A DNA stretch of 64,000 bases from Pseudonocardia sp. ICBG1293 (lineage in GTDB: Bacteria; Actinomycetota; Actinomycetes; Mycobacteriales; Pseudonocardiaceae): positions 186,001-250,000 of the forward strand of contig NZ_JAHLEL010000085.1 of assembly GCF_020131355.1 (NCBI RefSeq), in the 5' to 3' direction. The position numbers were made by a program, and so were the translations under genes. This document shows positions 6,226-60,385 of the stretch, piece by piece; position 1 is the stretch's first letter; the number at the start of each line of letters is the position of its first letter. The notes below the pieces were generated by a model. The model was given only the letters and a program-made list of their open reading frames with translations, did not search any database and was not told where the DNA came from.

Positions 6226-6828
6226 TCAGCCCACGGCGCGGGCGGCGGCGACGAAGTCGCGGATGCGGGCGTGGTCCTTGACGCCGCGGGACGACTCGAC
6301 GCCGCTGGAGACGTCGACACCCCAGGGGCGGACCCGGCGCACGGCCTCGCCGACGGTGCCGGGGTCCAGCCCGCCGGCGAGCAGCCATCTCCCGTCCGGC
6401 CTCGGGTCGAGCGCCTCGGCGTCCCAGCGCTCGCCGGACCCGGCGACGGGGGAGTCGAGCAGCAGCACGTCCTCGCCGTAGAGGCCCACGGTGAGGTCCG
6501 GGTCGTGGGCCAGCGAGGTCGCCCGCCAGAGGGTGATCGGCGCGCGGGCGGCCACGGTGAAGTCGTCGCGGGTGTAGCGGCCGTGCAGCTGCAGCGCGTC
6601 GGCGCCGGCGTCGGCGGTCACCGCCGCGGCCCGGTCGGCGGGCAGGTCGGCGACCACGACCACCGACCGCACGCCGTCCGGCACCCGGGCGACGAGCGCG
6701 CCCAGGTCGGCCGGGTCGATGTGGCGGGGACTCGGCGGGTACACGACGAACCCGACCGCGTCGGCGCCGGCGGCCACGGCCGCGTCGACGTCGCCGGGGG
6801 TCCGCAGCCCGCACACCTTGACGAACAC
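6226..6828 (-). CDS. trpF: Phosphoribosylanthranilate isomerase
   Basis: This is a 200-residue TIM-barrel enzyme that performs the Amadori rearrangement of N-(5-phosphoribosyl)anthranilate in tryptophan synthesis. The N-terminal FVKVCGLRTP contains the general-base Cys. DALQLHG, the LLLDSPVAGSGERWD catalytic-Asp loop and the phosphate-binding LAGGLDPGTV and DVSSGVESSRGVKD motifs follow in family order. It stands apart from other trp genes, as is common in actinobacteria. An upstream 22-bp gap separates it from the PH-domain gene on the same strand; a hairpin follows its stop. Confidence 0.93.
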   Translation of the reverse strand: MFVKVCGLRTPGDVDAAVAAGADAVGFVVYPPSPRHIDPADLGALVARVPDGVRSVVVVADLPADRAAAVTADAGADALQLHGRYTRDDFTVAARAPITLWRATSLAHDPDLTVGLYGEDVLLLDSPVAGSGERWDAEALDPRPDGRWLLAGGLDPGTVGEAVRRVRPWGVDVSSGVESSRGVKDHARIRDFVAAARAVG

Positions 6829-22139: not shown

Positions 22140-22153
22140 GGCGTGTCTCCTAA

Positions 22154-22274
22154 GAGGTCGTTTCAGAACGACTTGTCGAGTTTCCATTGACCCCTCGACG
22201 ACAGATCAAACGGCAGGTCAGATAGCCGCTTGTCGTCTACAACAGACACGTCGACCTCGTTCTGAAATGACCTC
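22154..22274. mobile_element. MITE copy 1 (121 bp)
   Basis: The terminal inverted repeats (GAGGTCGTTTCAGAACGA and GAGGTCATTTCAGAACGA) match at 17 of 18 bases. TAA flanks both ends. It has no transposase. The first 15 bases equal the IS-B terminus, so IS-B transposase is the likely mobiliser. Four copies occur in the window. Confidence 0.9.
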
Positions 22275-22277
22275 TAA

Positions 22278-23881
22278 GCTTGATCTTTAACCTTCCGGAG
22301 CTGCTGCTGGGAGGTTGATGTAGTTCGGGCGGCGTGTCGGCGGGACATGGGTACGGCCACCGCTTGATCATCTTCGGGTTCCTTCCACAGAACATCGAAG
22401 ACGAAAGCGGTGGCCGTGGTGGTCAGTGTGGCTTCTGCCGGGCCAGTGGTGCTCGGTGACACTCCGGTCGGGCGGGGTGATCTTGCCGGGTTTCGGCAGG
22501 AGTTCTACGCGTCGTTGACTGCGCGAGCGGATGCGCTGTTCGAGCTCACCGACGCCGTGTTGTGCGCGGACGGCCCGGTTCGCTCGCTACCGGAGCTGAC
22601 CTTGGTGGCTGAGCACCGTCGCGGGCACGGCGCGATGTACGACGCGTTGGCCTGTGGCAGGATCTCCGCCCGGAGGCTGCGCCGGGTGCTGGCCGGTCTC
22701 CCGTTGCCCCGTGCCGTCGACGGTCGGATCGTGCTCGCCGTGGATGTCAGCCCGTGGCTGCGCCCGGACGCTACGACCAGCGATCAGCGGCTGTTCTGCC
22801 ATGTCTACGGACGCGGAAAGGGCAACGCGCAGCTGATCCCGGGCTGGCCATACTCGTTCGTCGCCGCCCTGGAGACGGGCCGGACGTCGTGGACGGCGGT
22901 CCTGGACGCGGTTCGACTCGGCCCGGCCGACGACGCCACCGCGGTGACCGCCACCCAGCTACGCGCGGTCATCGAGCGACTGACCAGCGCCGGGCACTGG
23001 CGCCCCGGGGACCCGGACATCGTGATCGTCACCGACACCGGATACGACATCACCCGCCTCGCCTACGTACTGGCCGATCTGCCCGTCGAGCTGGTCGGAC
23101 GACTGCGCTCGGACCGGGTCCTGCGCCTGCCCAAGCCGCCACGGCTGCCCGGCACGACCGGGCGCCCACCCAAGCACGGCCCGGAGATCGCCTTGAACCG
23201 GCCCGCCACCTGGATCGAACCGGTGCACACCACGACGACCAAGACCACCCGCTACGGCACTGCCGTCGCGACCAGCTGGGACCGGGTCCACCCCCGGCTG
23301 ACCCGGCGCACGTGCTGGATCGACCACGCCGGCGAACTGCCGATCATCGAGGGCACCCTGCTCCGGCTGCAGGTCGACCACCTACCCGGCGACCGCGACC
23401 CGAAGCCCGTGTGGCTATGGAGCTCCGCCACCGACGCGAGCGCCGCCGACGTGGACCGCTGGTGGCAGGCGTTCCTCCGCAGATTCGATCTCGAGCACAC
23501 ATTCCGCCTGCTCAAGCAGACCCTCGGCTGGACAACCCCGAAGCTGCGCACCCCCGAAGCCGCCGACCGCTGGACCTGGCTGATCATCGCCTCCCACACC
23601 CAACTCCGCCTGGCCCGACCACTGGCCGCCGACCTACGCCGCCCCTGGGAACGACCCGCCGCCCCCACCCGGCTCACCCCGGCCCGGGTTCGCCGCGCCT
23701 TTCGGAACATCCGCGCGCGGACCGTCCTCCCGGCCAGTGCACCGAAACCCAGCCGACCCGGTCCCGGCCGCCCACCCGGCTCCCGCAACCGGCACACCCC
23801 GACCAGCCACGACGTCGGGAAAACGGTCAAACGCGACCGCACCATCACCGCGCGACGACAACACACAGGTTAAAAACCAAG
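22278..23881 (+). mobile_element. IS-C, 1.6-kb DDE insertion sequence
   Basis: Imperfect ends GCTTGATCTTTAACC and, inverted, GCTTGGTTTTTAACC bound one transposase gene. CTAA (possibly CTAAG) is duplicated at 22274 and 23882. It sits at the joint between MITE copy 1 and IS-B copy 1. Confidence 0.85.
22410..23873 (+). CDS. DDE transposase of IS-C (IS701-like / NF041680-type)
   Basis: This is a 487-residue transposase. Candidate acidic residues lie in VLAVDVSPWLRPD, VIVTDTGYDITRLAY and RRFDLEHTFRLLKQTLGW, the last being the ExxF-type motif of RNase H-fold transposases. The C-terminal tail is Pro/Arg rich and probably binds DNA. The N-terminal sequence (VLGDTPVGRGDLAGFR) recalls the family named NF041680 in automated annotation; this label is from memory. 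The GTG start at 22410 lies 130 bp inside the left end. The gene appears intact. Confidence 0.85.
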   Translation: MAVVVSVASAGPVVLGDTPVGRGDLAGFRQEFYASLTARADALFELTDAVLCADGPVRSLPELTLVAEHRRGHGAMYDALACGRISARRLRRVLAGLPLPRAVDGRIVLAVDVSPWLRPDATTSDQRLFCHVYGRGKGNAQLIPGWPYSFVAALETGRTSWTAVLDAVRLGPADDATAVTATQLRAVIERLTSAGHWRPGDPDIVIVTDTGYDITRLAYVLADLPVELVGRLRSDRVLRLPKPPRLPGTTGRPPKHGPEIALNRPATWIEPVHTTTTKTTRYGTAVATSWDRVHPRLTRRTCWIDHAGELPIIEGTLLRLQVDHLPGDRDPKPVWLWSSATDASAADVDRWWQAFLRRFDLEHTFRLLKQTLGWTTPKLRTPEAADRWTWLIIASHTQLRLARPLAADLRRPWERPAAPTRLTPARVRRAFRNIRARTVLPASAPKPSRPGPGRPPGSRNRHTPTSHDVGKTVKRDRTITARRQHTG

Positions 23882-23949
23882 CTAAGACGTCGTTTCAGAA
23901 GTGGTGGGCCCGGTTCTGCCGGTGACGGCGGGGCTGGCAGCATCGGCTG

Positions 23950-24542
23950 ATGGTCGCGCCTCGTGTGTCTGAGAAGACGAAGATTTTCGAGTTGGAGATC
24001 GTCCTGACCGAGGTGGTGCCGGCGGTCCGGCGTCGGGTGCAGGTGCCGGGCGAGGTCGACTTGGCGGTGTTGCACGAGGTGGTGCAGTCAGTGATGGGCT
24101 GGACGAACTCTCATCTGCACGAGTTCGAGATCGTCGGGCGCCGCTACGGGATCCCAGACCCGGACTGGCCCGGACAGGATGTCGCCGACGAGACGAAAGA
24201 GAAGCTGTTTCGGCTGGTCAAGGCTGGTGACCGGTTCGGTTACGTCTACGACTTCGGTGACAACTGGGCCCACGAGATCACCGTCGAGGCGGTCGCGGCC
24301 GTCGAGCCGGGAGTGTGCTATCCGCGATGCGTCGCCGGGCAGGGGGCGTGCCCGCCCGAGGACGTCGGCGGGATCGGGGGTATGAGGACTTCCAGGCCGT
24401 GCTCGCCGACCCTGACCATCCCGACCGCGCCGAGCGCCTGGAGTGGGCGGGCGGGCCGTTCGACCCGCACCGCTTCGACCCTGACGAGGCCGACCGGGCC
24501 TTGGAGTGGCTGGCCTGGCGGCCGCTGGCCCCGACCTCGTAG
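23950..24542 (+). pseudogene. pRiA4b Orf-3-like passenger gene, frameshifted
   Basis: The first ~145 residues are intact (FELEIVLTEVVPAVRRRVQV, HLHEFEIVGRRYG, FGYVYDFGDNWAHEI). A run of five G at about 24374-24378 is one base shorter than in copy 2, where the gene is whole. The frame is lost there and the true C terminus (YEDFQAVLADPDHPDRAERL) continues in another frame to 24542. The native reading gives a 197-residue protein in copy 2. Confidence 0.85.
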
Positions 24543-24573
24543 GCGAGTGCCTCAGCGAGGGCTGGGTCGACCA

Positions 24574-25413
24574 TCACTTCGGCTTCGGCTTGGTGAGGCG
24601 GCGGTGGCAGATCAGGGCGCAGGCCAGCGATAACAGCGCGGTGATCGTGGATTCGGCGCGGTCGTAGCGCAGCGCGAGGCGGCGGAAGTCCAGCAGCCAG
24701 GACATGGTGCGCTCGACGACCCAGCGGACCCGCCCGAGCCGGGTGGAGTCCTCGATCCCGCGCCGGGCGATCCGCACCCCGATCCCACGCCCACTCAGGT
24801 AGCGGCGGCAGCGGGGATAGTCGTAGCCCTTGTCGGCGTGCACCTTGTCCGGCCGACGTCGCGGACGCCCCGGCTGTCCCGCCCGTTCGCGGACGCCGGG
24901 GTTGGTGTCCAGCAGCGGGGCGAGCATCCGACTGTCGTGGGTGTTCGCCCCGGTGACCAGCGCATGCAGCGGGAGCCCGCCTCGGTCGCAGAGCACGTGG
25001 TACTTGCTGCCCGCCTTCCCGCGATCGGTCGGCGAGGGCCCGGTGGCCTCGCCGCGGCGCTTGGCCCGCACGCTCACGCTGTCCACCGCCGCCCGCGACC
25101 AGTCCAGCAGGCCCTGCTGGGCGAGGCGGTCGAGCATCACCCGGTGCAGCTGGGCCCAGACCCCGGCCTGCTGCCACTGCCGTAGCCGCCGCCAGCAGGT
25201 CACTCCGGACCCACAGCCGAGCTCGGCGGGCAGCGCGTTCCAGCTGATCCCGGTCTTGAGCACGAACACGATCCCGGCCAGAGCGGCCCGATCCGGCACC
25301 CGCGGACGGCCTGTCCGTCCCCGCTTGTGCTTGCGCGGCTTGGGCAGCAGCGGCTCCACCAGCGCCCACAGCTCGTCGCTCACCAATCGCTCGACACAAG
25401 ATCGCCGCGCCAC
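24574..25413 (-). CDS. IS5 family transposase of IS-B copy 1
   Basis: This is a 279-residue DDE transposase. It has the N-terminal DUF4096 segment (LVSDELWALVEPLLPK ... TGISWNALP), then DWSRAAVDSVSVRAKR (first Asp), HADKGYDYPRC (second Asp) and VRWVVERTMSWL (Glu). It ends in a Lys-Pro repeat. The gene looks functional and is nearly identical to the copy at 57743, differing in NTHDS versus NAHDS and one KP unit. Confidence 0.9.
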   Translation of the reverse strand: MARRSCVERLVSDELWALVEPLLPKPRKHKRGRTGRPRVPDRAALAGIVFVLKTGISWNALPAELGCGSGVTCWRRLRQWQQAGVWAQLHRVMLDRLAQQGLLDWSRAAVDSVSVRAKRRGEATGPSPTDRGKAGSKYHVLCDRGGLPLHALVTGANTHDSRMLAPLLDTNPGVRERAGQPGRPRRRPDKVHADKGYDYPRCRRYLSGRGIGVRIARRGIEDSTRLGRVRWVVERTMSWLLDFRRLALRYDRAESTITALLSLACALICHRRLTKPKPK

Positions 25414-26213
25414 GACCGGACATGATCAGCTACCAGCGCCGATCCACACAGGACCGACACGCCGACTTCTGAAACGACCTCTAAAGTGCGCAACCAGGTG
25501 ACGATGGCCTTCAGTGCAACTCCGCCGCGGTAGGTCAGGGCGAGTTTGTCGTAGCGGGTCGCGAGGCCGCGCCACTGCTTGACCTCGCAGAACCCGCGTT
25601 CGACGACGTTGCGGCCGCGGTAGTCGACCCGGTCGAACGCTGGTGGTCGGCCGCCGCGTGTGCCGCGTCGTTTCCGGTGTCCCTGCTGGTCAGCCGGCTC
25701 CGGGATGACCGCGACGATCCGTCGTCTGCGCAGGTGGGCGCGGATGGCGCGTGAGGAGTAGGCCTTATCTGCGCGGACCCGCTCGGGTCGGGTCCGCGGT
25801 CGGCCCGGACCGACCCGTCCGACGCTCAGATGTGACATCAGGTGCGCGAACATCGGGGCGTCACCGGCCTGTCCGGGGCCGACGAGTACGACCAGCGGGC
25901 GGCCGTGTCCGTCAACGAGCTGGTGGATCTTCGTGCCGAGCCCTCCGCGGGAGCGGCCCAAGGCGTGATCGGGTGGCTCGATCAGCAGATTCTTGTAGTT
26001 CGATCCGGCCCCCTGTGTCTCGCTGCAGGGTCGCGGCGTGTTGGTGAGCGCGGATGATCGTCGAGTCGACCGACACGGCCCAGTCCACGAGACCGGCGGA
26101 GTCGGCATCGGCGAGCAGAGCTGCGAGAACCTGGTCCCAGGTGCCGTCACCGCAGTAGCGGCGGTGGCGTTTCCATAGGGTCTGCCACGGCCCGAACTCG
26201 ACCGGGACATCAC
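25380..26213 (-). pseudogene. IS-A orfB copy 1, C terminus replaced by insertion
   Basis: This is the second half of the IS-A transposase (KIHQLVDGHGRPLVVLVGPG, RADKAYSS, RNVVERGFCEVKQW). In copy 2 it ends TWLRTLGDTP and uses TAG of the flanking CTAG as its stop. Here, the nested insertion after TWLRTL makes it read into IS-B to 25380. Its expression would require a frameshift from orfA at the run of five C/G at 26009-26013. Confidence 0.8.
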
Positions 26214-30761: not shown

Positions 30762-31394
30762 TCAGCGACGGCGGGTGATCACCACCGGCGCGATCCGCCG
30801 GGGCACCTGCGCGAACGCGGACTCGGGCACCCCGAACGACGCGGCCAGCACGTCGCGCGGGATCGCGTTGAGGCTGCCGACGATGCCGATGTCGTCGTCC
30901 GGCTCGGCGGTCGAGGTGTTGAACACGATGAGCACGTCGAGCGCCTCGGTCGTCGACGGGTTCTCGAAGTAGTGGAACAGGCCCGTCGGCGCGAACACCA
31001 GGTCGCCGCGCTGCGCGGTGAAGACGTCGTTGTGGTAACCGCCGTCGGGGTGGGTGCCGAGGATCGTCCAGCGTGCGGTGCCGGAGACGACGTAGTTCAG
31101 CTCCCACGCGGTCGGGTGCCAGTGCGGCTCGCGGATCCCGCCGGGGTCGAGGTGGGCCAGGTAGACCGAGCCCTGCCGGCCGGCGAGCACCGGGAAGTTC
31201 TGCTCGTTCGCCCCGCGCAGCCATCCGCCGTCGAACGTGTTCGGGTCGCTCGCCGCGAGATGGAACAGGTGACCGGGCTGCCCGGTCCGCGGCGGGGTCG
31301 GAGCGCCCGCCCCGGCGGTCCCGCCCGCGGCGGCCAGTCCCGCCATCCCCGCGACACCCGCGCCGAGGGCGCGTCGCCTGCTGATCCCCGTCAT
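30762..31394 (-). CDS. Tat-exported cupin protein (oxalate decarboxylase-like monocupin)
   Basis: This is a 210-residue secreted protein. The N terminus ISRRRALGAGVAGMAGLAAAGG is a Tat signal (twin Arg then hydrophobic). A single cupin follows, with the metal motif GIREPHWHPTAWELNYVVSG (two His, Glu) and a second-motif His (LFHYFENPS). Single-cupin relatives include oxalate decarboxylase-type proteins; activity is unproven. A MITE begins 15 bp before the start codon, leaving the ribosome site AGGGAG intact but replacing the native upstream region. Confidence 0.8.
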   Translation of the reverse strand: MTGISRRRALGAGVAGMAGLAAAGGTAGAGAPTPPRTGQPGHLFHLAASDPNTFDGGWLRGANEQNFPVLAGRQGSVYLAHLDPGGIREPHWHPTAWELNYVVSGTARWTILGTHPDGGYHNDVFTAQRGDLVFAPTGLFHYFENPSTTEALDVLIVFNTSTAEPDDDIGIVGSLNAIPRDVLAASFGVPESAFAQVPRRIAPVVITRRR

Positions 31395-31408
31395 GGTCTG
31401 CTCCCTAA

Positions 31409-31529
31409 GAGGTCATTTCAGAACGAGGTCGACGTGTCTGTTGTAGACGACAAGCGGCTATCTGACCTGCCGTTTGATCTGTCGTCGAGGGGTCAATGGA
31501 AACTCGACAAGTCGTTCTGAAACGACCTC
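31409..31529. mobile_element. MITE copy 2 (121 bp)
   Basis: It is the reverse complement of copy 1 and appears identical. TAA flanks it at 31406-31408 and 31530-31532. It lies directly upstream of the cupin ribosome-binding site. Confidence 0.9.
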
Positions 31530-55584: not shown

Positions 55585-56564
55585 GAGGTCGCGCGGATTG
55601 GTCACAGCTTGGCCGCGGTCGAGTGTCTGGGGGCGAGGGCGGGTACGGGCCTGCCGATCATGAAGTTATCTACGCTTCGTGATCGTCTGGAGGCCGCGTG
55701 CCCACCCTGCCATCATGGCTGACCGAGCCGTTGTGGGACCAGTTCACCGCGCTGCTGCCTCATCGAGACGAGTTCGATCCCACCCATCCGCTGGGCTGCC
55801 ATCGCCGCCGGATCGCGGATCGGATCGTGTTCGACAAGCTCCTGCAGGTACTGCGGTTCGGCTGCTCGTATGAGGGCATCGCTGACAGCACCTGCTCGGC
55901 GACCACCATCCGCGATCGTCGTGACGAGTGGATCAGGCTCGGGGTCTTCGCCCAGCTGCGTCGGATCGTCCTGGACGCCTACGACCGCATCGTCGGTCTG
56001 CTGCTGCACGACATCGCCGTCGATGGCGCCATCACCAAGGCCCCCGGCGGCGGCGAGGTCGCCGGTCCGTCGCCGGTGGACCGGCGCAAACAGGGTATGA
56101 AACGTTCGGTGCTCGTCGAGGGATACGGCATCCCGCTGGGCCGAGTCCTGGCCGGAGCCAACCGGCACGACTCCCCGCTACTGGGCCCCACCCTCGACCG
56201 CCTCGATGCTCTCGGCCCGCTGCCCGACGACATCACCGTGCACCTCGACGCCGGCTATGACTCCGGCAAGACCCGCGACACGCTGGCCGAACGAGGCCTG
56301 CACGGCGAGATCGCGCACAAGGGTGAGAAAGCGCCGATCCAGGCCACCCGCCGCTGGCACGTCGAGCGGACCAACGCTTGGCACAACAGCTTCAACCGGC
56401 TGCAGCGCTGCTACGAACGACGAGAAATCGTCGTCGACGCGTTCTTCGACCTCGCCGACACGATCGTCACACTCCGTAGCTTGATTCGGCAGGCCTGGAC
56501 CACACACCGCTGGAACGCCCGACCTGCACGACGTCCATGATCACCAACCAATCCGCGCGACCTC
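55585..56564 (+). mobile_element. IS-E copy 1 (IS5-type, 980 bp)
   Basis: Perfect ends GAGGTCGCGCGGATTGGT and complement. TAA at 55582-55584 and 56565-56567. Confidence 0.93.
55698..56540 (+). CDS. IS5 family transposase of IS-E copy 1
   Basis: This is a 280-residue DDE transposase. LTEPLWDQFTALLPHRDEF is the N-terminal HTH-like domain. HDIAVDGAITKAP (Asp), HLDAGYDSGKTR (Asp) and WHVERTNAWHNSFNRLQR (Glu) are catalytic. The GTG start is used. The two copies (55698, 56681) appear identical. Confidence 0.9.
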   Translation: MPTLPSWLTEPLWDQFTALLPHRDEFDPTHPLGCHRRRIADRIVFDKLLQVLRFGCSYEGIADSTCSATTIRDRRDEWIRLGVFAQLRRIVLDAYDRIVGLLLHDIAVDGAITKAPGGGEVAGPSPVDRRKQGMKRSVLVEGYGIPLGRVLAGANRHDSPLLGPTLDRLDALGPLPDDITVHLDAGYDSGKTRDTLAERGLHGEIAHKGEKAPIQATRRWHVERTNAWHNSFNRLQRCYERREIVVDAFFDLADTIVTLRSLIRQAWTTHRWNARPARRP

Positions 56565-56567
56565 TAA

Positions 56568-57547
56568 GAGGTCGCGCGGATTGGTCACAGCTTGGCCGCG
56601 GTCGAGTGTCTGGGGGCGAGGGCGGGTACGGGCCTGCCGATCATGAAGTTATCTACGCTTCGTGATCGTCTGGAGGCCGCGTGCCCACCCTGCCATCATG
56701 GCTGACCGAGCCGTTGTGGGACCAGTTCACCGCGCTGCTGCCTCATCGAGACGAGTTCGATCCCACCCATCCGCTGGGCTGCCATCGCCGCCGGATCGCG
56801 GATCGGATCGTGTTCGACAAGCTCCTGCAGGTACTGCGGTTCGGCTGCTCGTATGAGGGCATCGCTGACAGCACCTGCTCGGCGACCACCATCCGCGATC
56901 GTCGTGACGAGTGGATCAGGCTCGGGGTCTTCGCCCAGCTGCGTCGGATCGTCCTGGACGCCTACGACCGCATCGTCGGTCTGCTGCTGCACGACATCGC
57001 CGTCGATGGCGCCATCACCAAGGCCCCCGGCGGCGGCGAGGTCGCCGGTCCGTCGCCGGTGGACCGGCGCAAACAGGGTATGAAACGTTCGGTGCTCGTC
57101 GAGGGATACGGCATCCCGCTGGGCCGAGTCCTGGCCGGAGCCAACCGGCACGACTCCCCGCTACTGGGCCCCACCCTCGACCGCCTCGATGCTCTCGGCC
57201 CGCTGCCCGACGACATCACCGTGCACCTCGACGCCGGCTATGACTCCGGCAAGACCCGCGACACGCTGGCCGAACGAGGCCTGCACGGCGAGATCGCGCA
57301 CAAGGGTGAGAAAGCGCCGATCCAGGCCACCCGCCGCTGGCACGTCGAGCGGACCAACGCTTGGCACAACAGCTTCAACCGGCTGCAGCGCTGCTACGAA
57401 CGACGAGAAATCGTCGTCGACGCGTTCTTCGACCTCGCCGACACGATCGTCACACTCCGTAGCTTGATTCGGCAGGCCTGGACCACACACCGCTGGAACG
57501 CCCGACCTGCACGACGTCCATGATCACCAACCAATCCGCGCGACCTC
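56568..57547 (+). mobile_element. IS-E copy 2 (IS5-type, 980 bp)
   Basis: It directly follows copy 1 with a single TAA (56565-56567) between them and TAA after (57548-57550). By inspection it is identical to copy 1. Confidence 0.93.
56681..57523 (+). CDS. IS5 family transposase of IS-E copy 2
   Basis: It is the same 280-residue protein as in copy 1, intact, with the same GTG start. Confidence 0.9.
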   Translation: MPTLPSWLTEPLWDQFTALLPHRDEFDPTHPLGCHRRRIADRIVFDKLLQVLRFGCSYEGIADSTCSATTIRDRRDEWIRLGVFAQLRRIVLDAYDRIVGLLLHDIAVDGAITKAPGGGEVAGPSPVDRRKQGMKRSVLVEGYGIPLGRVLAGANRHDSPLLGPTLDRLDALGPLPDDITVHLDAGYDSGKTRDTLAERGLHGEIAHKGEKAPIQATRRWHVERTNAWHNSFNRLQRCYERREIVVDAFFDLADTIVTLRSLIRQAWTTHRWNARPARRP

Positions 57548-57550
57548 TAA

Positions 57551-57671
57551 GAGGTCATTTCAGAACGAGGTCGACGTGTCTGTTGTAGACGACAAGCGGC
57601 TATCTGACCTGCCGTTTGATCTGTCGTCGAGGGGTCAATGGAAACTCGACAAGTCGTTCTGAAACGACCTC
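57551..57671. mobile_element. MITE copy 3 (121 bp)
   Basis: Same orientation as copy 2, TAA on both sides (57548-57550, 57672-57674), between IS-E copy 2 and IS-B copy 2. Confidence 0.9.
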
Positions 57672-57742
57672 TAAGAGGTCGTTTCAGAAGTCGGCGTGTC
57701 GGTCCTGTGTGGATCGGCGCTGGTAGCTGATCATGTCCGGTC

Positions 57743-58588
57743 GTGGCGCGGCGATCTTGTGTCGAGCGATTGGTGAGCGACGAGCTGTGGGCGCTGGTGG
57801 AGCCGCTGCTGCCCAAGCCGCGCAAGCACAAGCGGGGACGGACAGGCCGTCCGCGGGTGCCGGATCGGGCCGCTCTGGCCGGGATCGTGTTCGTGCTCAA
57901 GACCGGGATCAGCTGGAACGCGCTGCCCGCCGAGCTCGGCTGTGGGTCCGGAGTGACCTGCTGGCGGCGGCTACGGCAGTGGCAGCAGGCCGGGGTCTGG
58001 GCCCAGCTGCACCGGGTGATGCTCGACCGCCTCGCCCAGCAGGGCCTGCTGGACTGGTCGCGGGCGGCGGTGGACAGCGTGAGCGTGCGGGCCAAGCGCC
58101 GCGGCGAGGCCACCGGGCCCTCGCCGACCGATCGCGGGAAGGCGGGCAGCAAGTACCACGTGCTCTGCGACCGAGGCGGGCTCCCGCTGCATGCGCTGGT
58201 CACCGGGGCGAACGCCCACGACAGTCGGATGCTCGCCCCGCTGCTGGACACCAACCCCGGCGTCCGCGAACGGGCGGGACAGCCGGGGCGTCCGCGACGT
58301 CGGCCGGACAAGGTGCACGCCGACAAGGGCTACGACTATCCCCGCTGCCGCCGCTACCTGAGTGGGCGTGGGATCGGGGTGCGGATCGCCCGGCGCGGGA
58401 TCGAGGACTCCACCCGGCTCGGGCGGGTCCGCTGGGTCGTCGAGCGCACCATGTCCTGGCTGCTGGACTTCCGCCGCCTCGCGCTGCGCTACGACCGCGC
58501 CGAATCCACGATCACCGCGCTGTTATCGCTGGCCTGCGCCCTGATCTGCCACCGCCGCCTCACCAAGCCGAAGCCGAAGCCGAAGTGA
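57743..58588 (+). CDS. IS5 family transposase of IS-B copy 2
   Basis: This is a 281-residue DDE transposase with the same domains as at 24574: DWSRAAVDSVSVRAKR, HADKGYDYPRC, VRWVVERTMSWL. It ends with three Lys-Pro pairs plus Lys rather than two. It looks intact. Confidence 0.9.
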   Translation: MARRSCVERLVSDELWALVEPLLPKPRKHKRGRTGRPRVPDRAALAGIVFVLKTGISWNALPAELGCGSGVTCWRRLRQWQQAGVWAQLHRVMLDRLAQQGLLDWSRAAVDSVSVRAKRRGEATGPSPTDRGKAGSKYHVLCDRGGLPLHALVTGANAHDSRMLAPLLDTNPGVRERAGQPGRPRRRPDKVHADKGYDYPRCRRYLSGRGIGVRIARRGIEDSTRLGRVRWVVERTMSWLLDFRRLALRYDRAESTITALLSLACALICHRRLTKPKPKPK

Positions 58589-58619
58589 TGGTCGACCCAG
58601 CCCTCGCTGAGGCACTCGC

Positions 58620-59213
58620 CTACGAGGTCGGGGCCAGCGGCCGCCAGGCCAGCCACTCCAAGGCCCGGTCGGCCTCGTCAGGGTCGAAGCGGTGCGGGTC
58701 GAACGGCCCGCCCGCCCACTCCAGGCGCTCGGCGCGGTCGGGATGGTCAGGGTCGGCGAGCACGGCCTGGAAGTCCTCATACCCCCCGATCCCGCCGACG
58801 TCCTCGGGCGGGCACGCCCCCTGCCCGGCGACGCATCGCGGATAGCACACTCCCGGCTCGACGGCCGCGACCGCCTCGACGGTGATCTCGTGGGCCCAGT
58901 TGTCACCGAAGTCGTAGACGTAACCGAACCGGTCACCAGCCTTGACCAGCCGAAACAGCTTCTCTTTCGTCTCGTCGGCGACATCCTGTCCGGGCCAGTC
59001 CGGGTCTGGGATCCCGTAGCGGCGCCCGACGATCTCGAACTCGTGCAGATGAGAGTTCGTCCAGCCCATCACTGACTGCACCACCTCGTGTAACACCGCC
59101 AAGTCGACCTCGCCCGGCACCTGCACCCGACGCCGGACCGCCGGCACCACCTCGGTCAGGACGATCTCCAACTCGAAAATCTTCGTCTTCTCAGACACAC
59201 GAGGCGCGACCAT
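58620..59213 (-). CDS. pRiA4b Orf-3-like passenger protein of IS-B
   Basis: This is a 197-residue protein of the PRiA4_ORF3 (IS1096_N-related) family: FELEIVLTEVVPAVRRRVQV, LHEVVQSVMGWTNSHLHEFEIVG, GDRFGYVYDFGDNWAHEITVE and CYPRCVAGQGACPPEDVGG. Such proteins occur on plasmids and beside transposases; their role is unknown. It is convergent with the transposase, 31 bp from its stop. The same gene in IS-B copy 1 is frameshifted. Confidence 0.85.
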   Translation of the reverse strand: MVAPRVSEKTKIFELEIVLTEVVPAVRRRVQVPGEVDLAVLHEVVQSVMGWTNSHLHEFEIVGRRYGIPDPDWPGQDVADETKEKLFRLVKAGDRFGYVYDFGDNWAHEITVEAVAAVEPGVCYPRCVAGQGACPPEDVGGIGGYEDFQAVLADPDHPDRAERLEWAGGPFDPHRFDPDEADRALEWLAWRPLAPTS

Positions 59214-59280
59214 CAGCCGATGCTGCCAGCCCCGCCGTCACCGGCAGAACCGGGCCCACCACTTCTGAAACGACGTCTAA

Positions 59281-59401
59281 GAGGTCATTTCAGAACGAGG
59301 TCGACGTGTCTGTTGTAGACGACAAGCGGCTATCTGACCTGCCGTTTGATCTGTCGTCGAGGGGTCAATGGAAACTCGACAAGTCGTTCTGAAACGACCT
59401 C
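59281..59401. mobile_element. MITE copy 4 (121 bp)
   Basis: Same orientation and sequence as copies 2 and 3. TAA at 59278-59280 and 59402-59404. Confidence 0.9.
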
Positions 59402-59404
59402 TAA

Positions 59405-60385
59405 GAGCGTCCGGCGATTGATGGTTATCGGAGTCGACGGGTCGTGGGTCGGGTTGTCCAGCGGTAGCGGCTGCGGGCATGGTTGATCAGCCGGCGGATC
59501 ACGGTGAGCGCGGCGGCGAGGTTGAGGTAGAACTCGACGATGATCTTCCGGCGATCGGTGAACCGGCGCAGCTTGCCGTAGCCGTTCATCCAGGAATGGG
59601 TGCGCTCGACCGGCCACCGCTTACCGACCTGGATCGGGGCGGGCCGGCCCTTGGTGGCGATCTGTGCGTCGAACCCGAGTCGTTCGAGCAGATCGCGGGT
59701 CTTGCCTGAGTCATAGCCCCGGTCCAGGTGCAGGCACGGTCGCTCGGGCAGCGGCCCGATCATGTCGTAGATCCCGATCAGGGTCGGTTTCAGCAACGGC
59801 GAGTCGTGGTCATTGGCGCGGGCGCTGATCAGGTGCAGCGGGATCCCCGCACCGTCGCAGACCACGGAGCGTTTGGTGCCCTGTTTGCCCCGGTCGACCG
59901 GGTTACAGCCGGCGACCTCGCCACCGCAGGGAGCCTTGGTGATCGCTCCGTCGGCAGACAGATCGTCGAGGTCGAGACCGATCATCTGGTCATAGCCGGC
60001 CAGCGCGGCCCGAAGGACCTGCTCCCCGACGCCGGCGGCGGCCCACTGGGCGAGACGGCGGCGGATCGTGCGGTCCGAGCAGCCGGGGGTGGCAATGCGT
60101 TCGTAGCCGCTGCCGTGCACCAACGCCGCGAGCACGTGCTCGAACACCAGGCGGTCGGGGATACGGCGGCGGTGACATCCCCACGGATGGGCCGGGTCGA
60201 ACTCCGGGCGCCGCTCTGCCTCGATCAGGGCAGCGAACTCGACCCAGAGGGGGTCGATCAGCGATTCTGGCAATAGAGGCACGGACCCTCCAGGCGACCA
60301 TCAGGACATCAGCAATCCCATGATCACTTGCAGGTCCGTGTCTCTACCAACACCGACACACGGCCACCTCTACTGCCGGACGCTC
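59405..60385 (-). mobile_element. IS-G copy 2 (IS5-type, 981 bp)
   Basis: Ends GAGCGTCCGGC and complement GCCGGACGCTC, TAA at 59402-59404 and 60386-60388. Confidence 0.92.
59425..60282 (-). CDS. IS5 family transposase of IS-G copy 2
   Basis: This is a 285-residue DDE transposase. LIDPLWVEFAALIEAE forms the N-terminal domain. LDDLSADGAITKAPCGG (Asp), HLDRGYDSGKTRDLL (Asp) and WPVERTHSWMNGYGKLRRF (Glu) form the catalytic triad. It is intact, unlike copy 1. Confidence 0.9.
   Translation of the reverse strand: MPLLPESLIDPLWVEFAALIEAERRPEFDPAHPWGCHRRRIPDRLVFEHVLAALVHGSGYERIATPGCSDRTIRRRLAQWAAAGVGEQVLRAALAGYDQMIGLDLDDLSADGAITKAPCGGEVAGCNPVDRGKQGTKRSVVCDGAGIPLHLISARANDHDSPLLKPTLIGIYDMIGPLPERPCLHLDRGYDSGKTRDLLERLGFDAQIATKGRPAPIQVGKRWPVERTHSWMNGYGKLRRFTDRRKIIVEFYLNLAAALTVIRRLINHARSRYRWTTRPTTRRLR

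Follow-up and report, generated by a model that had tools for sequence, protein, structure and literature searches.

The window analysed in this study is a 64,000-bp stretch of contig C85 in the assembly of Pseudonocardia sp. ICBG1293. It contains four copies of a 121-bp MITE among several insertion sequences (IS), which include two copies each of IS-B and IS-D, and the relevant features are as follows.

22154-22274, minus strand: MITE copy 1, 121 bp, with TAA at 22151-22153 and 22275-22277
22278-23882, plus strand: IS with a DDE_5 transposase, ends GCTTGATC.../...AAACCAAGC, at TAA, between MITE copy 1 and IS-B copy 1
23886-25481, minus strand: IS-B copy 1, a 1596-bp variant
31409-31529, plus strand: MITE copy 2, 121 bp, TAA on each side
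55585-56564, plus strand: IS-D copy, first of a tandem, 980 bp, IS5 type, ends GAGGTCGCGCGG, flanked by TAA
56568-57547, plus strand: second IS-D copy of the tandem, adjoining the TAA of MITE copy 3
57551-57671, plus strand: MITE copy 3, 121 bp, TAA on each side, between IS-D and IS-B
57675-59277, plus strand: IS-B copy 2, 1603 bp, left end GAGGTCGTTTCAGAA, right end GACGTCGTTTCAGAA, TAA on each side
57731-58588, plus strand: IS-B transposase frame, 285 codons plus stop, DUF4096 and DDE_Tnp_1, IS5 type
58620-59213, minus strand: IS-B passenger gene PRiA4_ORF3 (PF07929), oriented opposite to the transposase
59281-59401, plus strand: MITE copy 4, between IS-B and IS-E, TAA on each side
59405-60282, minus strand: IS-E, one end GAGCGTCCGG plus a transposase ORF, its extent delimited at one end only

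The original prediction described the copies at 22154, 31409, 57551 and 59281 as near-identical, and they are in fact 100% identical over 121 bp. As it also stated, TAA borders all four copies on both sides, and the terminal repeats agree at 17 of 18 bp, with position 7 as the single mismatch. The claim that the MITE shares its outer 15 bp with IS-B is exact for one pair of ends, the MITE right end and the IS-B left end (15/15), but the other pairs agree at 13 or 14 of 15 positions (14/15 between the two left ends, and 14/15 or 13/15 between the MITE ends and the IS-B right end). As described, IS-B copy 2 has the copies at 57551 and 59281 directly on either side, whereas the copy at 22154, placed beside IS-B copy 1 (23886-25481), is separated from it by another IS (22278-23882). 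The two IS-D copies at window positions 55585-57547 lie in direct tandem and have a single TAA in common. The pairing of a transposase gene with PRiA4_ORF3, as in IS-B, recurs in three elements on Pseudonocardia plasmids, with a DNA identity of about 73%. A cupin-domain gene (30762-31394, minus strand) has its start codon 14 bp downstream of MITE copy 2, which adjoins a likely ribosome-binding site recognised by eye (window 31392-31409) and may alter the expression of this gene.

The 121-bp element is short, carries no transposase gene, and folds over its full length into a single imperfect hairpin (-56.2 kcal/mol as RNA, z -5.6; -28.8 when computed as DNA, z -4.75). It has terminal inverted repeats, target-site duplications with empty sites and many dispersed copies, and its ends agree with those of IS-B, an autonomous element that the genome also carries, at 13-15 of the outer 15 bp. 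The duplicated TTA or TAA is the same as that of Tourist MITEs. By the features tested, the element is a new MITE family that works like known MITEs. The strong fold and the fragmented assembly could instead point to an assembly artefact, or to a REP/ERIC-like host repeat with a host function. We give this reading hardly any credence, because the copies have differing unique flanks at many places, no full copy occurs in the 61 congeners searched, and the surroundings of copy 1 give no Rfam match above the gathering score. The element was also considered as an RNA gene and rejected, as its fold is strong, yet the sole Rfam match, around copy 1, reaches 17.8 bits against a cut-off of 35.8.

The original prediction took the low divergence of the copies as a sign of recent, ongoing spread and proposed a count of copies and divergence across the genome. 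The host assembly comprises 7,959,327 bp (7.96 Mb) in 86 contigs, with an estimated contamination of 5.68%. At up to 3 mismatches it contains 215 MITE copies, compared to 0 for a reversed-pattern control, which excludes chance matches, and among the matches listed (100 of the 215) all have 0 mismatches. The sample that we read covers 1,619,651 of the 7,959,327 bp (~20% of the genome), largely picked around copies, plus the window. It holds 126 full copies, and no partial copies were found in its 1,619,651 bp at E <= 0.001. Identical sequences make up 124 of the 126 sampled copies, while the copy at C8:85103 carries 1 substitution, at base 1, and the copy at C46:74710 carries 2; this amounts to 3 changes in 15,246 bases, a uniformity that polishing of repeats during assembly could overstate. 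In IS-B, 3 substitutions are private to single copies among 45 complete copies of 1.6 kb, and other variants are common to many of the 45, indicating that more than one IS-B lineage has multiplied. Because the sample is free of decayed MITE copies, shows almost no mutations, and has no full-length counterpart in the other Pseudonocardia searched, the results indicate a recent burst. The identity of the element as a MITE and its recent spread are thus well supported, and this part of the original prediction, as distinct from its word 'ongoing', was borne out by the copy number, the identity of 124 of 126 sampled copies, the matched duplications and the empty sites.

Beyond the host, searches of 61 further Pseudonocardia genomes and of 389 family genomes, congeners included (2 candidates scored per genome in the latter), revealed no full copy. 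The original prediction had named copies in genomes lacking any element with these ends as evidence against it, and the 389 other family genomes yielded no further full copy. The best outside matches are 44 bp long, at the end of an element of G004 that we call IS-G, and 24 bp long in G139, the latter unlike an element end. The plasmids and phages searched gave no match, and neither did viral contigs when searched with exact 23-mers.

All 126 sampled MITE copies carry TTA or TAA on both sides, and 105 of them have matching 3-bp TWA duplications, including C8:85103, whose flank reading was shifted by its substitution at base 1. The 36 insertions in unique DNA with a matching duplication give the consensus C/T-TWA-G/A, in which the base before the target is C in 56% and T in 33%, and the base after it is G in 72% and A in 25%. 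When the flanks of the 124 exact copies were joined, 47 matched sampled sequence across the join, although many of these 47 matches are other MITE or IS junctions, are gapped, or fall below 95%. Clean empty sites exist for C60:54581, which matches C30:25030-25229 over 200 bp at 99% and without a gap, and for window copy 57551, for which a bare IS-D/IS-B junction lies at G000:C8 229099-229298 (100% over 200 bp). Window copy 59281 has gapped matches only, at about 88%, and no empty sites were found in the sampled sequence for window copies 22154 and 31409. The matched flanks and empty sites show that MITE copies arose by transposition.

The flanks are unlike, with TTA on one side and TAA on the other, in 21 of 126 sampled MITEs and in 16 of 45 complete sampled IS-B copies. 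Such flanks are not the product of simple insertion and require recombination between copies or misassembly; the former is the likeliest cause and the latter is possible. The 21 MITEs with unlike flanks, and three MITE junctions with the same flanks on C17 and C60, also agree with a spread by recombination, gene conversion or segmental duplication instead of transposition. Such a spread was already disfavoured, and it seems very improbable to us in view of the exact 121-bp borders, the 3-bp duplications, the unrelated surroundings and the empty sites. The three junctions on C17 (4248-11564) and C60 (71715-79266) are identical and in identical order, the first two being spaced equally (407 bp) and the third lying at 6,789 versus 7,024 bp; these stretches are duplicated or doubly assembled.

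The sampled DNA has a GC content of 71.6%. It contains 577 YTWAR sites, those made by the elements themselves included, of which 404 touch a MITE or another recurrent flank and 173 are free, and 361 CTWAG sites, of which 45 are free; these counts come from a sample that is enriched for elements. At least one neighbour among the recurrent flanks is found for 88 of the 126 sampled MITEs. A codon-usage score trained on C6 places 2 of the 36 unique-DNA insertions, and 5 of 171 free sites, in coding sequence. Random positions are scored as coding at 67-68% on C6, C8 and C85, about 64% on C14 and C47, 60% on C46, 41% on C38, and 21-28% on C22, C60, C30 and C59, where either the score performs poorly or the coding density is low. 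With expectations matched by contig, about 12.5 of 33 insertions should fall in genes, compared to 2 seen (three insertions on contigs without a rate were left out). The depletion in genes therefore stands, though it is smaller than the control based on C6 alone (68% coding) had implied, and it indicates that target choice steers the MITE away from genes.

Each insertion leaves a new target at its edge (for example, CTC-TAA-GAG), which accounts for the mixed arrays, the tandem pairs and the arrangement in the window. One such array, near 206.6-212.5 kb on C6, reads IS-B / IS-D / IS-E / MITE / IS-D / MITE, and three tandem MITE pairs were found. In the stretch C6:1-400000, 23 of the 36 YTWAR sites are at the ends of MITE, IS-B, IS-D or IS-E in 7 clusters, 8 are at other repeats, and 5 are free. 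On whole contigs, free sites number 43 of 97 on C22, 33 of 66 on C60, 13 of 19 on C59 and 30 of 45 on C46, and the occupied clusters (15, 12, 3 and 4, respectively) are fewer than the free sites. Near-saturation of targets thus holds for a single chromosomal-type stretch and is no general feature. Compared to C6, C8 and C85 (72-74% GC), contigs C22, C60, C30 and C59 are lower in GC (66-67%) and weaker in coding signal, and are possibly plasmids or islands; C22, C60 and C30 are rich in MITEs, and C59 has one.

The original prediction held that the MITE is apparently mobilised by IS-B, and this is the best-supported explanation, which we infer indirectly from the ends and flanks of the two elements. 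The genome contains 129 IS-B ends, corresponding to about 65 copies, with a length of 1603 bp and variants of 1597 and 1596 bp. Its transposase, an IS5-type DDE enzyme (PF13340, 90.9 bits; PF01609, 76.5 bits), is encoded at 65 places in open frames of 283-319 codons. Among 47 sampled IS-B left ends, 45 belong to complete copies, all of them TWA-flanked and 29 with matching flanks; these flanks would also fit the TNA target of the IS1031 group. A census of ends returned 563 TIR-like matches, compared to 0 for the reversed pattern; 430 are expected from the 215 MITEs and 129 are those of IS-B, leaving about 4. Left-end matches number 216, against 215 MITEs. A third element with MITE-type ends was also considered and rejected, with only the ~4 of 563 ends left to account for it. 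Since no element besides IS-B and the MITE was found with such ends, and TWA likewise flanks all 45 complete sampled IS-B copies, IS-B is the best candidate helper and likely mobilises the MITE in trans.

The nearness of the MITE to IS-B, offered originally as a link between them, calls for no such link, since MITE, IS-B, IS-D and IS-E all occupy and rebuild TWA sites. The same applies to IS-D, which could be proposed as the helper because it shares the outermost GAGGTC and the TWA target with the MITE, often abuts it, and alternates with it in arrays so that MITE pairs lie about 1107 bp apart. However, the agreement with the MITE over the 18-bp TIR is 7-8 positions for IS-D, compared to 15-17 for IS-G, 13-15 for IS-B and 4 for the one end of IS-E, and adjacency is expected where 404 of 577 YTWAR sites touch recurrent flanks and 88 of 126 MITEs have such a neighbour. 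Mobilisation by IS-D is accordingly very unlikely. Two findings argue against IS-B as well, namely that IS-G-type ends fit the MITE better than IS-B ends do, and that the TWA target is not specific to IS-B, being used also by IS-D and IS-E.

IS-G is an 880-bp IS5 element in G004 with TAA on each side, and its left end, which gives the 44-bp match, is the sole sequence in the 61-congener search that resembles the MITE beyond the tips. Beyond the TIR, the left arm of the MITE aligns with the IS-G left end without gaps at 20 of 25 positions, and with the IS-B left end only with gaps; in both cases 0 of 500 shuffles were as good. The right arm is weakly similar to the IS-G right end (5/500 shuffles as good) and is not alike to the IS-B right end (392/500), all four comparisons falling within nine uncorrected tests. 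IS-B as the direct parent of the MITE is weakened in two ways: it is without the four bases that lie between the TIR and the subterminal motif in the MITE and IS-G, and its TIR agrees less well than that of IS-G. On these alignments, IS-B is unlikely to be the parent, and the MITE probably stems from an IS-G-like element, with IS-B as its adoptive helper.

In the G004 genome, IS-G (locus L031, 1501-2380), whose transposase frame is split, lies at TAA beside a frame that by eye resembles the beginning of a further transposase. Relatives of IS-B with 81% amino-acid identity are present in several copies in the Pseudonocardia genomes G030 and G032, each with one TGA inside the match. A scan of 25 loci recognised IS-B-type left ends in seven distinct other genomes, all with GACGTC, after exclusion of two IS-G-type loci and of those in which no end was recognised. 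The relative on a P. alni plasmid has GAGGTC, as in the host IS-B.

The MITE could also have been spread by its own IS-G-like IS5 parent, since lost (for example, with a plasmid) or missing from the assembly, in which case the ends of IS-B would be merely similar. The closer agreement of IS-G ends (15-17/18, against 13-15/18 for IS-B), the ungapped alignment of the left arm, and the occurrence of IS-G-type ends, at up to 2 mismatches, in 9 of 61 other Pseudonocardia genomes are consistent with such a parent. However, neither the transposase nor the body of IS-G was found in the host genome, where the best match to the transposase is IS-B (55-58%), the rest being more distant, and DNA matches are confined to IS-B segments and the MITE end. 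The MITE copies also look too young for a source lost long ago, and IS-B is abundant, open-framed and similarly young. We therefore regard spread by a vanished parent as rather unlikely, though clearly less so than mobilisation by IS-D.

Taken together, we consider it probable that the element is a non-autonomous IS5-type MITE of IS-G-like origin that uses IS-B as its helper, targets TWA and builds arrays. The MITE would have derived from an IS-G-related IS5 element whose ends it retained, and the transposase of the ~65 IS-B copies would recognise its 17/18-bp terminal repeats and move it in trans. Insertion takes place at Y-TTA/TAA-R with duplication of three bases, as the anatomy of the copies shows. 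In this GC-rich genome such targets are rare and, as the codon-usage score shows for the sample, mostly non-coding, and genes are seldom broken. The edge of each insertion would provide a new site, so that MITE, IS-B, IS-D and IS-E may stack in the pattern observed. More tentatively, and with somewhat less than even confidence, we suggest that three or more IS5-type elements and an adopted MITE form a guild sharing the rare, non-coding Y-TWA-R target. Most targets would be consumed locally, where target supply would govern copy number, and rebuilt targets would sustain the growth of arrays with little harm to genes, the MITE having been born of one IS5 lineage and carried by another.

The genome thus offers an unusually clean case of a recent MITE burst in a bacterium, with about 215 almost uniform copies, an abundant candidate helper and a defined target. 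It is a natural test case for questions raised by plant MITEs, such as helper switching, the tolerance of hundreds of insertions and the limits set by target supply. It also serves as a warning, as the clustering of elements here reflects target choice in common and alone is no proof of functional partnership. Among titles and the opening parts of abstracts on Pseudonocardia or actinobacterial IS5-type MITEs, with subscription journals outside the scope, we found no published report of this MITE. A study of the Lowry landfill predicted MITEs in dioxane-monooxygenase contigs, and the portions of it available to us describe no family with these features (PMC12542641).

The closest bacterial parallel is MITECca01 of a Cardinium endosymbiont, which, according to the available portions of its description, underwent a lineage-specific burst to 169 copies, mostly intergenic or within mobile elements, and is thought to be maintained by intact IS copies (PMC9769881). 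MITECca01 belongs to the IS982 family, has its own parent IS as helper and resides in an endosymbiont, whereas the Pseudonocardia MITE is of IS5 type, resides in a GC-rich actinomycete, and has a likely non-parental helper and a fixed TWA target (PMC9769881). In plants, as far as the source available to us describes, PIF/Harbinger transposases are IS5-like and make 3-bp TTA/TAA duplications, and the Pong transposase moves the MITE mPing (PMC2213677). The system described here resembles Tourist and mPing in its IS5-similar transposase, its TTA/TAA duplications and a MITE probably moved by a related element (PMC2213677). The plant systems are eukaryotic and use a PIF/Harbinger transposase, whereas here the host is a bacterium and the candidate helper a bacterial IS5 element, and the analogy is one of mechanism only. 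IS-B shares DUF4096, DDE_Tnp_1 and 3-bp duplications with the IS1031- and IS427-like groups of the IS5 family, as outlined in the parts of the source consulted, but differs in its length of 1.6 kb and its PRiA4_ORF3 passenger (PMC2516522). Correia, ERIC, QMITE and Chunjie elements, as partly covered in a review, are likewise short, terminally repeated and mostly intergenic, with high copy numbers that reach up to 711 for ERIC and are also high for Correia (PMC10969869). By that account, QMITE and Chunjie are highly variable in both size and sequence (PMC10969869), whereas the Pseudonocardia MITE shows almost no variation and was found in a single genome. Compared to these systems, what looks unusual here is the adoptive helper, the near-uniformity within one genome, and the use of most targets in one stretch.
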